Below are positions 12,910 to 21,089 of a stretch of 64,000 bases of DNA, piece after piece; within the stretch, counting starts at the first letter, position 1, and each line of letters opens with the position of its first letter. The notes under the pieces are model-generated. The model saw nothing but the letters and a program-made list of their open reading frames with translations. It had not been told where the DNA came from and did no database searches. A program made the translations under genes and the position numbers. Source of the stretch: Gammaproteobacteria bacterium (GTDB lineage: Bacteria; Pseudomonadota; Gammaproteobacteria; Steroidobacterales; Steroidobacteraceae); assembly GCA_025359205.1 (NCBI GenBank), contig JANYHD010000023.1, positions 62,001 to 126,000 of the forward strand. Reading direction: 5' to 3'.

Positions 12910-13872
12910 TCAGCCGGCGGCGGCCACGCGCGGCTTGGCCTGCATGTCGACAAAGTCGAGCCAGCCCCACTTGTCGGCCGTGCGGCCGTCGAACAGGCCG
13001 AAAAAGGCCTGCTGGATGCGCTCGGTAATAGGGCCGCGCTTGCCGGTGCCGACAGTGATGCGATCGACCGAGCGGATCGGCGTCACCTCGACGGCGGTGC
13101 CGGAGAAGAACAATTCATCGGCCAGGTACAACAGTTCCCGTGGCACCGCGCACTCGCGCACTTCGAGCCCAAGCTCGCGCGCCAGGCGCATCACCGTGTC
13201 GCGCGTGATGCCGCCGAGCACCGAGTGCGCCAGCCCCGGGGTCATCAGCACCCCGTCCTTCACCACGAACAGGTTCTCGCCACCGCCCTCGCTGACCGTG
13301 CCGTCGGTCGACAGGCCGATGCCTTCGGCAAAGCCGAGGCGCTTGGCCTCCATGCTGATGAGCTGGCTGGAAAGGTAATTGCCGCCGGCCTTGGCCATCG
13401 CCGGCAGTGTGTTCGGCGCCACGCGCTGCCAGGAGGACACGCACACGTCCACGGCCTCGCTCTCGCCCTCGGTGCCGAGATACTTGCCCCATTCCCAGGC
13501 CGCGATCGCCACGTCGACCGGCGGGTCGATCTTCGGCACCACGCCCATTTCACCATAGCCGCGGAACGCAATGGGCCGGAGGTACGCGCCCTTGGCGAGA
13601 TTGTTGGCCGCGATGGCCTCGCGGCAGGCGGAGTCGATCTGCTCGGGCTGGAACGGGATCTGGATGCGGTAGATCTTGGCGGAGTCGAACAAGCGCCGCG
13701 TGTGATCCTGCAGGCGGAAGATGGCCACACCCTGCGGTGTGGCATAGGCGCGGATGCCCTCGAACACTGAAGAGCCATAGTGCAGGGCGTGCGCCAGCAC
13801 GTGCACCGTGGCCTTCTCCCAGGGCACAAGCTTGCCGTTGAACCAGATGTAGGGTGTTGCGGGTATGGGCAT
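12910..13872 (-). CDS. ilvE: Branched-chain amino acid aminotransferase
   Basis: A 320-residue class IV PLP transaminase catalysing the last step of valine, leucine and isoleucine synthesis. Landmarks are YIWFNGKLVPWEKA, ALHYGSSVFEGIRAY, LRPIAFRGYGEMGV and the Schiff-base lysine in AKAGGNYLSSQ. The ATG at 13872 is preceded by AAGGA and gives the normal family length; a longer reading upstream has no family similarity. It sits between leuA and leuC, so the last transamination step is co-transcribed with the leucine genes. Confidence 0.95.
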   Translation of the reverse strand: MPIPATPYIWFNGKLVPWEKATVHVLAHALHYGSSVFEGIRAYATPQGVAIFRLQDHTRRLFDSAKIYRIQIPFQPEQIDSACREAIAANNLAKGAYLRPIAFRGYGEMGVVPKIDPPVDVAIAAWEWGKYLGTEGESEAVDVCVSSWQRVAPNTLPAMAKAGGNYLSSQLISMEAKRLGFAEGIGLSTDGTVSEGGGENLFVVKDGVLMTPGLAHSVLGGITRDTVMRLARELGLEVRECAVPRELLYLADELFFSGTAVEVTPIRSVDRITVGTGKRGPITERIQQAFFGLFDGRTADKWGWLDFVDMQAKPRVAAAG

Positions 13873-15506: not shown

Positions 15507-16499
15507 CTAGCGCGTGGCCTGCAGCCAGGGCATGCGCGCGCGTAACTTCGCGCCGACCTTCTCGATCGGCTGGTTCAGGTCGGCCTTCAGCATGCGCTGG
15601 TAGTTCTTGCCGCCGGCCTCGCTCTCGCGGATCCATTCGCGCGCGAAGCGCCCGCTCTGGATCTCCTTGAGGATGCGGCGCATCTCGTTGTGCGTGCGCT
15701 CGTTGACCACGCGCGGTCCGCGCGTCAGGTCGCCGAACTTGGCGGTGTCGCTGATGTACTTGTGCATCTTGGTGATGCCGCCCTCGTGCAGCAGGTCGAC
15801 GATCAGCTTCAGTTCGTGCAGGCACTCGTAGTAGGCGACTTCCGGCTGGTAGCCGGCTTCCACCAGCGTCTCGAAGCCCTTGACCACCAGCTCGGTGGCG
15901 CCGCCGCAGAGCACGGCCTGCTCGCCGAACAGGTCGGTTTCGGTCTCTTCGGCAAAAGTGGTCTCGAGCACGCCGCCGCGGGTGCCGCCGATTCCATGCG
16001 CGTAGGCGAGGGCGCGCTGGTGCGCATTGCCGGTCGCGTCCTGCGCCACCGCGATCAGGCAGGGCACACCGTACCCCTGCTGGTACTGGCGGCGCACCAG
16101 GCCGCCCGGGCCCTTGGGCGCAATGAGCACCACGTCGAGGTCCTTGCGCGGCTTGATCTGCTTGAAATGCACGTTGAAGCCGTGCGCGAACAGCAGCGTG
16201 GCGTGCCGGGCGAGTTTCGCCTTGATGGCCTGGTACAGCGCCTTCTGCGCCATGTCGGGCACCAGCATCGCCCCCAGGTCAGCGCCTTCGACGGCGTCGA
16301 TCGGCTCGGCAACCTTGAGGCCGTCGCGCTTCGCGTTCTTCCAGCTGGCGCCGCCCTTGCGCACGCCGACGACGATCTTGAAGCCGCTGTCCTTGAGATT
16401 GAGCGCGTGCGCGCGGCCCTGGCTGCCATAGCCCAGGATGGCGATGCGTGCGCCCTTCAGCGCCTTCTTGTCCACGTCCTTCTGCGAAAACAACTTCAT
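15507..16499 (-). CDS. ilvC: Ketol-acid reductoisomerase, class I (short form)
   Basis: A 330-residue enzyme, the length of the short class I form. It isomerises and reduces acetolactate or acetohydroxybutyrate with NADPH. The Rossmann motif is [14 protein letters not shown]; catalytic motifs include [31 protein letters not shown] and [13 protein letters not shown]. It is the first structural gene of the operon and lies directly downstream of the predicted attenuator, so valine/leucine supply probably sets its expression. Confidence 0.96.
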
Positions 16500-16528
16500 G
16501 AAAAAAATCTCCCAATACGCCTAAGGTT

Positions 16529-16561
16529 AAAAAAAACCCCGCATCGGCGGCCGGTGCGGGG
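16529..16561 (-). terminator. Rho-independent terminator in the ilvC leader (attenuator)
   Basis: On the minus strand a CCCCGCA...TGCGGGG stem with an inner CGG/CCG extension is followed by eight T residues (16529-16536) and lies 29 bp before the ilvC ATG. A competing GTGCGGG (minus strand of 16607-16613, inside the leader peptide coding sequence) is an exact 7-base complement of the CCCGCAC in the upstream arm, giving an alternative antiterminator pairing. Confidence 0.85.
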
Positions 16562-16588
16562 TTCTGGTGTTGTTGCGTCCTTCGGACC

Positions 16589-16666
16589 TTAGCTCAACAT
16601 GCAGCACCCGCACTGACTGCTCCGCAGCAGCAGATTCTTGGCGAGCAGTACGACGGAAGGCTGCAT
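16589..16666 (-). CDS. ilv leader peptide (branched-chain amino-acid-rich attenuator peptide)
   Basis: A 25-codon reading frame starting MQPSVVLLAKNLLLRSS, with Val-Val-Leu-Leu at codons 5-8 and three successive Leu (CTG CTG CTG) at codons 12-14. It ends 28 bp before the terminator hairpin. Ribosome stalling at scarce Val- or Leu-tRNA would leave the downstream coding part free to pair with the terminator arm, permitting read-through into ilvC. It has no Shine-Dalgarno sequence; the predicted transcription start is at or next to its A, so it may be translated from a leaderless mRNA. The peptide itself probably has no other function. Confidence 0.8.
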   Translation of the reverse strand: MQPSVVLLAKNLLLRSSQCGCCMLS

Positions 16667-16672
16667 GGCGGA

Positions 16673-16701
16673 ATAACACCACGGCATCAAGTACTTGTCA
16701 A
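16673..16701 (-). promoter_or_regulatory. Promoter of the ilvC-leu operon
   Basis: On the minus strand a consensus TTGACA (16696-16701) is followed after 17 bp by TGTTAT (16673-16678). The A of the leader-peptide ATG (16666) is the seventh base after the -10, i.e. where transcription should start. Confidence 0.7.
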
Positions 16702-16711
16702 CGCAATTGGT

Positions 16712-16717
16712 TATTCT
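16712..16717 (+). promoter_or_regulatory. -10 element for leucyl aminopeptidase, probable leaderless transcript
   Basis: TATTCT lies with its last base 7 bp before the ATG at 16724, the spacing expected if transcription begins at the start codon. No Shine-Dalgarno sequence is present. The -35 region is weak. The promoter is back to back with that of ilvC. Confidence 0.5.
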
Positions 16718-16723
16718 AGCGGC

Positions 16724-18112
16724 ATGCTTCTCGATCATGCCGAAGGCCAGAGTGCCACCCCCTTGTGGCTGGTTGGCGAATCCACATTGCCCCAATGGCT
16801 CTCGAGGCTCGATCCGGCCGCGGCCGTCTGGCTGACCCGCCACGGATTCCAGGCCGAGCGCGCGCGCGTCATGACGGTGCCCGGGCCATTGGGTGGCATC
16901 GCAGCGGCTGTGGCAGGGTTAGGAGCGCAGTCCGATATTGCGCCACCCTCGCTGTGGGATGGCGCGGTCTGCGCAGAACGGCTCCCCGCTGGCCTCTACG
17001 CCCTGGCCACGCCGCTCTCGAGCGCGGCTGCGACCCAGTTCGCGCTCGGCTGGCTGCTCGGTGGCTACCGCTACGTCCGTTTCCGCAGCCAGCACAAGTG
17101 CGCGCCCGCGGCACAGCTGCTGGCGCCGGAAGGGTGCGACACGGCCTACGCCAGGGCCGCCGCCGCGGCCATTTCCTGGGCGCGCAACCTGGTCAATACG
17201 CCACCCAACGAACTGGGTCCCGCTGAGCTGGCAGAGGCAGCACAGTCACTGACCTTGGAATTTGGGGGCCAGTACAACGTCTGCGAGGGCGAGGCGCTGC
17301 GAGCGCAATATCCCCTGGTCGCCGCCGTGGGGCAGGCCAGCCCGCGCGCGCCGCGGCTGATTGATTGCCGCTGGCCGCGGCCGGGCGCGCCGCGGGTGAC
17401 GCTGGTGGGCAAGGGCGTGTGCTTCGACAGCGGTGGCCTCGACCTGAAACCCTCCGCCGGCATGTTGCTGATGAAAAAAGACATGGGCGGCGCGGCCTGC
17501 GCATTGGGGCTGGCGCGGCTCCTGCTCGCGATGGACGCGCCGGTGCAGCTGCGACTACTCATACCCGCGGTGGAGAACAGCGTGGGCGGCGCGGCCTACC
17601 GGCCCGGCGACGTGTGGAGCTCCCGCAAGGGGCTCACGGTGGAAATCGGCAACACCGACGCCGAAGGGCGCCTGGTGCTCGCCGATGCGCTCACTGATGC
17701 AGATGCCGAGCGGCCGGACCTCCTCATCGACCTGGCGACGCTGACCGGGGCGGCGCGCACCGCGCTGGGGCCCGACCTGCCGGCGGTGTTCGCATCGCCG
17801 CCCGCGCTCGCCGAGGCCGCCCGCGCGGCCGGAGAAGCGGTGTGCGATCCGCTTTGGCCGATGCCGCTGTGGGCCGGCTACGACGAGGAACTGGCCAGCC
17901 GCGTGGCCGACCTGAACAACGTATCCTCGGGTTCGTTCGCCGGAGCCATCATCGGGGCGCTGTTTCTCAAGCGCTTTGTGACCGCGACGCCCGAGTGGCT
18001 GCATGTCGATCTCTACGCCTGGAATCCCAAGGATCGACCCGGTCGGCCGCAGGGCGCCGAGGCGCAGGGGCTGCGTGCCCTGTACGCCCTGATCCGCAAG
18101 AAATTTGGCTGA
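16724..18112 (+). CDS. Leucyl aminopeptidase family protein (M17)
   Basis: A 462-residue M17 metallopeptidase that would release N-terminal Leu and other residues from peptides in the cytoplasm. The C-terminal catalytic domain shows KGVCFDSGGLDLKP, KKDMGGAA (metal and catalytic lysine) and the family signature NTDAEGRLVLADAL. The N-terminal domain is shorter and more divergent than in E. coli PepA, so a close orthologue of PepA is less certain than family membership. Divergent from the ilv-leu operon and upstream of ilvD, which suggests a role in supplying branched-chain amino acids from peptides (inference). Confidence 0.88.
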   Translation: MLLDHAEGQSATPLWLVGESTLPQWLSRLDPAAAVWLTRHGFQAERARVMTVPGPLGGIAAAVAGLGAQSDIAPPSLWDGAVCAERLPAGLYALATPLSSAAATQFALGWLLGGYRYVRFRSQHKCAPAAQLLAPEGCDTAYARAAAAAISWARNLVNTPPNELGPAELAEAAQSLTLEFGGQYNVCEGEALRAQYPLVAAVGQASPRAPRLIDCRWPRPGAPRVTLVGKGVCFDSGGLDLKPSAGMLLMKKDMGGAACALGLARLLLAMDAPVQLRLLIPAVENSVGGAAYRPGDVWSSRKGLTVEIGNTDAEGRLVLADALTDADAERPDLLIDLATLTGAARTALGPDLPAVFASPPALAEAARAAGEAVCDPLWPMPLWAGYDEELASRVADLNNVSSGSFAGAIIGALFLKRFVTATPEWLHVDLYAWNPKDRPGRPQGAEAQGLRALYALIRKKFG

Positions 18113-19403: not shown

Positions 19404-21089
19404 ATGAAAAAACGTTCAGAACATATTGATATTAGAAAGCATTCGAGCTTGGTCGTCGATGGCCTCAAGCAGACTGCGGCGCGCGCCATGCTACGCGCGG
19501 TGGGTTTCGGCGACGCCGATTTCGCCAAGCCGCAGATCGGCATCGCCTCGACCTGGTCCGATCTCACGCCCTGCAACATGCACATCGACGAGCTCGCACG
19601 TGAGGCGGGTGTGGGCGCGGACGCGGCCGGGGGCAAGAGCGTGCCCTTCAACACCATTACGGTGTCGGATGGCATCTCCATGGGTTCGCCTGGCATGCGC
19701 TACTCACTGGTGTCACGTGAGGTGATCGCCGACTCGATCGAAACCGTCGTCGCAGCGGAGGGCTTCGATGGTGTCGTCGCCATCGGCGGCTGCGACAAGA
19801 ACATGCCCGGCTGCGCGATGGCGATCGCGCGGCTCAACCGTCCCGCCGTGTTCGTCTATGGCGGCACGATCCGCCTCGGCGCCCAGCGGCGCGACATCGT
19901 CTCGGTGTTCGAGGCGATCGGTGCGCGCGCCGCCGGCAAGATCAGCGATGCCGAAGTGGCCGAGGTCGAGCGCACGGCGATACCAGGGCCTGGCAGTTGC
20001 GGCGGCATGTATACCGCCAACACCATGGCCTCGGCGATCGAGGCGCTGGGCTTGAGCCTGCCTGGGAGTTCCGCCCAGGAAGCCGTCGGGCAGCCTAAGC
20101 GCGCGGACTGCCGCCGCGCGGGCGCGGCCGTGGTCGCGCTGCTGCGTGCGGGCATCCGTCCCTCCGACATCCTCACGCGCAAGGCCTTTGAAAACGCCAT
20201 CACCGTCAGCATCGCGCTCGGCGGCTCGACCAACGTGGTGCTGCACCTGCTGGCGATCGCGCAGGCCGCGGGCGTCAGGCTCAGCCTCGCCGACTTCACA
20301 CGCGTCGGGAAGCGGACGCCTTTACTGGCAGACCTGCGGCCGAGCGGCCGCTACGCGATGTCGGAGCTGATTGCGATCGGCGGCATCCAGCCGCTCATGA
20401 AGACACTGCTGGATACAGGCCTGCTGCACGGCGATTGCCTGACGGTGACCGGGCAGAGCGTGGCGGAAAACCTGGCGCAGGTCGCGCCGTATCCGGCTGG
20501 CCAGGAAATCATCCGGCCGCTCGCGCGCCCCATCAAGAAGGACAGTCACATTGTCATCCTGCACGGGAGCCTCGCGCCCGAAGGCGCCGTGGCCAAGATC
20601 ACCGGCAAGGAAGGCCTGGCCTTCGCCGGCAAGGCGCGTGTTTATGACGGCGAGGAGCGCGCCACGAAGGCGATCCTCGCTGGCCGTGTCAAGGCCGGAG
20701 ACGTGGTCGTGATCCGCTACGAGGGGCCGAAGGGCGGGCCCGGCATGCGCGAGATGCTGAGCCCTACCGGGGCGATCGTCGGGCGGGGCCTCGGCGACAA
20801 GGTTGCACTGATCACCGACGGCCGCTTCTCCGGCGGCAGTCACGGCTTCGTGGTCGGCCATGTCTCGCCCGAGGCGGCGGTCGGCGGGCCCATCGCGCTG
20901 CTGCGCAACGGCGACCGCATCGCGATAGACGCCGTCCGGCGCCGCATCGACGTGGATCTGCCGGCGGCGGAGCTGCGCCGGCGAGCGCGGAAATTGCGGG
21001 CCCGCAAGCCCTATGCCACCCGCGGTGTCCTGGCCAAGTACGCCCGCGCCGTAAGCAGTGCATCATTGGGCGCTGTCACCGATCGGTAG
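19404..21089 (+). CDS. ilvD: Dihydroxy-acid dehydratase
   Basis: A 561-residue IlvD/Edd-family Fe-S dehydratase that makes the 2-oxo acid precursors of valine, leucine and isoleucine. Cluster and Mg ligands are seen in [18 protein letters not shown] and [14 protein letters not shown]; the C-terminal [19 protein letters not shown] is conserved. The start abuts the preceding stop (TAAATG). The first 15 codons are clearly AT-richer than the rest of the gene, which may aid initiation. It completes the ilv genes of the divergent operon. Confidence 0.95.

Follow-up and report, generated by a model that had tools for sequence, protein, structure and literature searches.

The ilvC-leuA-ilvE-leuC-leuD-leuB operon of a Steroidobacteraceae bacterium (GenBank assembly GCA_025359205.1) is very probably governed by ribosome-mediated transcription attenuation, with charged leucyl-tRNA as the main signal and valyl-tRNA sensed to some extent. 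The operon lies on the minus strand of the window, by which we mean the whole stretch of 64,000 nucleotides analysed (contig JANYHD010000023.1, positions 62,001 to 126,000; features in Table 1, numbered from the first base of the window). Its genes are separated by at most 34 nt or overlap slightly, and all six score above their NCBIfam model cut-offs (ilvE was scanned against the models from position 13863). Read 5' to 3' on the minus strand, the upstream region consists of TTGACA, 17 nt, TGTTAT (preceded by TG), six bases, an ORF of 25 codons plus stop (MQPSVVLLAKNLLLRSSQCGCCMLS), a spacer, a hairpin with eight T, GGGAG and then ilvC; the same 29 promoter bases are found in three relatives (L083, L084 and L150). 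Six Leu and two Val occur among the 25 codons of the leader peptide, and the Leu-Leu-Leu codons end 11 nt short of GTGCGGG (16613-16607), which is exactly complementary over 7 bases to CCCGCAC (16560-16554). An earlier note on this DNA had claimed an attenuator before the operon from a 25-codon leader with Val-Val-Leu-Leu and Leu-Leu-Leu, a strong terminator with a T run and an exact 7-base alternative pairing. Leader, complements, hairpin and T run were all confirmed base by base, every coordinate in the note is right, and only the likely promoter falls just outside them; the attenuator itself is supported by this anatomy, by conservation and codon choice in relatives, and by the lack of an IlvY match over the cut-off.

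Table 1. Positions of the attenuator parts and of the operon genes in the window
Feature	Position	Strand	Basis or detail
Likely promoter	16673..16701	-	-35 TTGACA 16701-16696, 17-nt spacer, -10 TGTTAT 16678-16673
Leader ORF	16666-16589	-	ATG 16666-16664, stop (TAA) 16591-16589
Val-Val-Leu-Leu codons GTC GTA CTG CTC	16654-16643	-	Sequence
Leu-Leu-Leu control codons CTG CTG CTG	16633-16625	-	Leu cluster retained in relatives
Antiterminator arm GTGCGGG	16613-16607	-	Inside leader ORF
Small hairpin GUCC-GAA-GGAC	16577..16587	-	Within composite antiterminator (fold)
Intrinsic terminator hairpin	16562-16536	-	GC-rich; first arm includes CCCGCAC (16560-16554)
Eight-T run after terminator	16536-16529	-	Sequence
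GGGAG site of ilvC	16513-16509	-	Sequence
ilvC	16499-15507	-	First gene of operon; NCBIfam match
leuA	15487-13907	-	NCBIfam match
ilvE	13872-12910	-	NCBIfam match
leuC	12900-11500	-	NCBIfam match
leuD	11493-10918	-	NCBIfam match
leuB	10921-9860	-	NCBIfam match

When the 261 nt preceding ilvC were shuffled 4000 times with dinucleotide composition preserved, a terminator as good as the window's arose in three shuffles, and terminator, leader and pairing together in none; a leader-like ORF alone is common by chance (489/4000). The 7-base pairing of the window, taken alone, is within chance (p = 0.099, 100 shuffles) and was discarded as too weak for a sole criterion, so the case rests on the full set of parts and on the relatives. 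The leader RNA folds with a z of -3.48, with 1 of 200 shuffles equally good. A stock consensus scanner called neither promoter nor terminator at the attenuator, presumably since it demands A at position 2 of the -10, which is G here, and since the hairpin has a mismatch and a long loop. A second scan, likewise blank at the attenuator, found no minus-strand terminator within the operon, a result of little weight since it misses the attenuator itself.

The proposed switch, from start site through ribosome stalling and read-through to the leucine response, would work as follows. RNA polymerase probably begins on the leader AUG, and the leader would be translated as a leaderless mRNA. With leucine plentiful, a ribosome would reach the stop codon and cover GTGCGGG, and the terminator would form ahead of ilvC. 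With charged tRNA-Leu in short supply, the ribosome would stall at Leu-Leu-Leu, GTGCGGG and CCCGCAC would pair as part of a composite antiterminator while the second terminator arm is still untranscribed, and transcription would continue into ilvC-leuA-ilvE-leuCDB. Folding was modelled with a ribosome that covers 12-15 nt counted from the first A-site base; at the stop codon, such a ribosome covers the antiterminator arm. With the ribosome at Leu12, 13 or 14 and RNA synthesized through the whole first terminator arm, the antiterminator is predicted at 0.84, with 7 bp, then CUG/CAG, then UGUUG/CAACA around GUCC-GAA-GGAC. The antiterminator still stands at 0.54 with no ribosome and the second terminator arm not yet made, which counts against the model; the full-length fold does contain a first hairpin in which the antiterminator arm is sequestered, though the shorter RNA gives this same value. 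Once the second arm is present the terminator wins in the states modelled, with the antiterminator at 0.00 without a ribosome and 0.01 with a stalled one. Since a stalled ribosome does not keep the terminator from winning at equilibrium, the model relies on timing, and the fold results fit a kinetic switch.

Relatives were sampled from the best 80 of 581 named ilvC loci, loci from relative genomes and the window itself, which gave 152 entries with an ilvC start (window included) and 147 distinct upstream regions; the nearest named matches among these best 80 of 581 come from metagenome genomes that carry the label Proteobacteria, Gammaproteobacteria, Steroidobacter or Steroidobacteraceae. Under a conservative rule (terminator score of at least 22 within 220 nt, plus a run of three Leu/Val/Ile), 78 of the 147 upstream regions pass the terminator criterion, and 67 of those also have the three-residue run and were counted as positive. 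By genome, the attenuator set is present under this rule in 42 of the 68 relatives with at least 200 nt available upstream. The remaining 26 count against the proposal, some being attenuator-like by eye and others lacking a leader; loci that look like attenuators by eye yet were not counted include L101, L102, L108, L024, L134, L004, L007, L019 and L114.

Many relatives keep the leader frame together with the Leu cluster and the antiterminator arm, and many leaders close with a Leu run and then Arg-Cys-Gly, whose codons CGG TGC GGG are the antiterminator arm itself. The alternative pairing reaches p <= 0.05 in 30 of the 67 positives (median 7 bp, up to 13), with 11-13 exact paired bases in L092, L093, L008, L012 and L094. 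Both sides of the pairing are altered in L095 and L033, and L144 differs by one wobble pair; L123 and L125 pair in another register, the core pairing carries a mismatch in L086, L089 and L090, and the ungapped pairing of distant loci is often only 5 bp. A leader and arm from the same locus beat exchanged ones on average by 2.1 and 2.4 kcal/mol (Wilcoxon p 1e-6 and 0.003, relatedness ignored), although the window's terminator arm counts against this pattern, since foreign leaders pair with it better (average -22.2) than its own does (-19.1). The earlier note's expectation that leader codons and complement would be conserved in related species is thus borne out in many of them, and fails in several that have lost the leader or pair more weakly.

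Outside the window's order, ilvC was matched in 193 of 232 genomes from other orders of the class, and 29 new loci were inspected. Two of these proved to be from the window's own order (L160 and L161), both with leader and terminator; among the other 27, leader and terminator are present in L168 and, by eye, in L166, and in 21 ilvC comes, by eye, after sequence ending like IlvN. One locus of the relatives sample, L033, belongs to an alphaproteobacterium (Sphingosinicella terrae) whose ilvC-ilvG operon has an attenuator of similar build, in which the two pairing arms are altered together (GGGAGCGG/CCGCTCCC); it was perhaps acquired by horizontal transfer.

Across the 67 positive loci, Leu accounts for 28% of leader codons as against 10% of codons in ilvC, CTT for 25% of leader Leu codons as against 5% in ilvC, and GTA for 39% of leader Val codons as against 7%. 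Choice among synonymous control codons is expected of sensitive attenuators, as described in one account of them (PMC1183508). The window's own leader counts against the codon argument, with the common codon CTG for four of its six Leu.

Leader composition seems to be re-tuned with the pathway that the operon serves, being Leu-rich in the leuA group and richer in Val and Ile where ilvC is followed by ilvG, ilvE or a thrA-like gene, though counterexamples exist. Steroidobacter agaridevorans (L025) has a Val/Ile-rich leader. The Leu share of Leu+Val+Ile has a median of 0.72 in the leuA group (60 positives) and is 0.43, with more Ile, in seven loci with ilvG next, and 0.19 in four loci with ilvE or a thrA-like gene next; the p values of this composition test ignore relatedness, and the leaders of six loci (L134, L166, L168, L026, L112 and L051) were assigned manually. 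The leuA group comprises the 60 remaining positives, with leuA no more than 200 nt from ilvC in 55, 353 nt away in L150 and out of sight in L149, and with a threonine-dehydratase-like gene preceding leuA in L091, L092 and L096. It omits leuA-next loci that fail the three-residue rule, several of them low in Leu share (L004 0.37, L007 0.45, L120 0.44, L128 0.29, L130 0.17 and L067 0.27) and some with doubtful leaders; with the omitted loci retained, the test gives p 0.0005 (70 vs 5, relatedness ignored). ilvG directly follows ilvC in 22 loci, of which seven were used, the others not being taken as attenuator loci. The order in one locus, L145, is ilvC, ilvG, a small ORF, a threonine-dehydratase-like gene (just below the best cut-off), leuA and ilvE, the small ORF resembling by eye an AHAS small subunit. 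Like the attenuator parts, their conservation and the codon bias, this rule of composition is read from sequence. In L143, the ORF after ilvC is by eye an aspartokinase-homoserine dehydrogenase, and the Val/Leu/Ile-rich leader of this locus also has Thr codons; this leader may read threonine supply as well.

In the window, ilvD (19404-21089, plus strand) lies outside the ilvC-leu-ilvE operon, as do ilvB and ilvN in the genome, and for this reason the attenuator looks chiefly like a leucine switch. ilvB (-) and ilvN (+) are divergent neighbours at 100647-102995 of another contig of the same genome (C14; L189 and L193) and do not form one operon, and no second attenuator before ilvB or ilvN was seen by eye between the two divergent genes.

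A sister group of eight loci (L107, L111, L110, L027, L021, L023, L020 and L116) has no Leu/Val leader upstream of ilvC, and leuC, not leuA, follows ilvC in seven of them (the sequence of L027 ends too early). The group has a palindrome over the promoter, perfect in L107 (GCATCATAG-N6-CTATGATGC), which was dropped as a candidate regulon operator: no further copy with up to two mismatches was found in G057, G020 or G042, and one in G016. Six of the eight (L107, L111, L027, L021, L023 and L020) keep the terminator. A terminator before ilvC with no such leader, together with the frequency of leader-like ORFs in shuffled sequence, would suit a terminator that is constitutive or under protein control and lies in a plain 5' UTR, the short ORF being incidental. 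We consider this very unlikely for the window, as leader frame, Leu cluster and antiterminator arm are conserved jointly, the leader codons are biased, and ATGs 6-9 nt after the -10 number 22 in the leader frame and 0 and 0 in the other two frames (58 positives with a promoter called). At 10-60 nt after the -10, the counts in the same 58 loci are 38 in the leader frame and 4 and 3 in the others.

In the window, the A of the leader start codon stands seven bases beyond the -10, the position expected for +1. Of the 18 distant positives, whose ilvC is at most 70% identical, 16 have a -10-to-start gap of 6-10 nt. Such a gap is seen in just 8 of the 40 closer positives, and these eight include the window and its three nearest relatives. 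Anti-Shine-Dalgarno pairing of -5 kcal/mol or better is found at 5% of leader starts and 91% of ilvC starts (58 loci), and is equally rare where the gap exceeds 18 nt (6% of 31 leaders). From the spacing of promoter and ATG and the missing Shine-Dalgarno, the leader is probably translated leaderless in the window and the short-gap relatives. An attenuator with an ordinary 5' UTR, in which transcription begins further upstream or initiation is not leaderless, is rather unlikely but deserves weight: more than 18 nt separate the -10 from the first leader start in 31 of the 58 loci, short gaps are infrequent in the closer relatives, and the window has an in-frame ATG upstream at 16687. That ATG, however, sits in the spacer of a promoter conserved in the nearest relatives, and both the short gaps of the distant positives and the rarity of anti-Shine-Dalgarno pairing at leader starts speak for the leaderless start. 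If the leader is leaderless, the promoter itself would set the transcription-translation coupling that attenuation needs.

An 8-base pairing in the window (CATGCAGC/GCTGCATG) could hide the leader start codon, and corresponding pairings of 7 bp are present in L085, 6 bp in L149 and L150, and 5 bp in L083. As a general feature such a hairpin was rejected, with a mean of 4.9 bp against 4.3 bp in controls (58 loci).

The IlvY model scores over its cut-off in five of 60 relatives (G060, G063, G072, G073 and G075), where the match always lies divergent from an ilvC that shares only 35-54% identity with that of the window. Thirty of the 60 relatives are attenuator genomes, and none of these has such a match. 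No match over the cut-off was found in the window's genome (best 104 bits, cut-off 246), and the divergent neighbour of ilvC in the window is aminopeptidase-like, not IlvY. IlvY and attenuator are mutually exclusive in this sample of 60, though they are not the sole options: most relatives without the attenuator are also without IlvY over the cut-off. The divergent aminopeptidase-like gene (16724-18112, plus strand) is below all NCBIfam leucyl aminopeptidase cut-offs, and a homologue is present at the same site in many relatives.

A structured leader with a terminator ahead of a biosynthetic operon could also belong to a ligand-binding RNA (riboswitch, T-box or similar) that governs the terminator. 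Rfam release 15 (4227 models) gave no match over the gathering score at 16000-17200, where the seven weak matches listed are consistent with chance. If transcription begins at the expected +1, nothing but the leader ORF and some 26 nt of spacer precedes the terminator. Such an RNA is extremely improbable beside a ribosome-mediated attenuator.

Attenuators of leu and ilv operons are familiar from E. coli and Salmonella (leuL, ilvL and ivbL), where ilvC stands outside the attenuated operons, under IlvY. The window has in common with these systems a leader ORF with runs of control codons, alternative hairpins, an intrinsic terminator and a biosynthetic operon, and differs in having ilvC at the head of the attenuated genes and a leader ORF that probably begins without a 5' UTR. 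Vitreschak and co-workers reportedly predicted attenuators across proteobacteria in 2004, and are said perhaps to have listed an ilvC-first operon in Xanthomonas (ilvC, ilvG, ilvM, tdcB, leuA). The gene order of L145 is similar to that of the Xanthomonas operon, whereas the window's operon is without ilvG and the dehydratase and its leader is mostly Leu. A search by title and start of abstract, with most subscription journals outside its range, returned no literature on such an attenuator in this group.

The earlier note's claim of a design different from that of E. coli ilvC stands, but an ilvC within an attenuated operon is not new, being described in S. aureus and C. glutamicum. The S. aureus ilv-leu attenuator, as described, has a Leu-rich leader and an operon that includes ilvC; unlike the window's, this operon begins with ilvD, belongs to another phylum and is also acted on by CodY (PMC5794164). 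The Corynebacterium ilvBNC attenuator is described with a leader rich in branched-chain amino acids, a terminator and an antiterminator, and its operon includes ilvC; in contrast to the window, AHAS genes are controlled first, the leader is Val-rich and the host is actinobacterial (PMC11857589, PMC10272879). The model put forward for C. glutamicum ilvBNC invokes initiation on leaderless mRNA (PMC11857589). In Sinorhizobium meliloti trpL, the attenuator RNA is described as starting at the leader ATG; this is an alphaproteobacterial Trp system with a reported 5' end, whereas we infer that of the window (PMC7298713). The main text of a genome-wide survey of premature terminators does not mention ilvC (PMC2965389).

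The attenuator is of a kind already known, and the window holds a new and widespread example of it; its interest lies in a leader that probably starts leaderless, in control codons that seem re-tuned and in the way attenuator and IlvY take each other's place. Evenly balanced, in our judgement, is the broader reading that leaderless leader ORFs throughout the lineage fuse promoter, start codon and switch, the first transcribed bases being the start codon, that gain or loss of genes in the ilvC-first operon shifts their control codons from Leu to Val/Ile, and that they replace IlvY. In annotation, such short ORFs should carry a leader-peptide label. A classical type of switch would here occupy the place where E. 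coli has a regulator protein; among close relatives this biosynthetic gene is accompanied in some by the transcription factor IlvY and in others by an RNA switch, whose codons seem to track the gene content of the operon.
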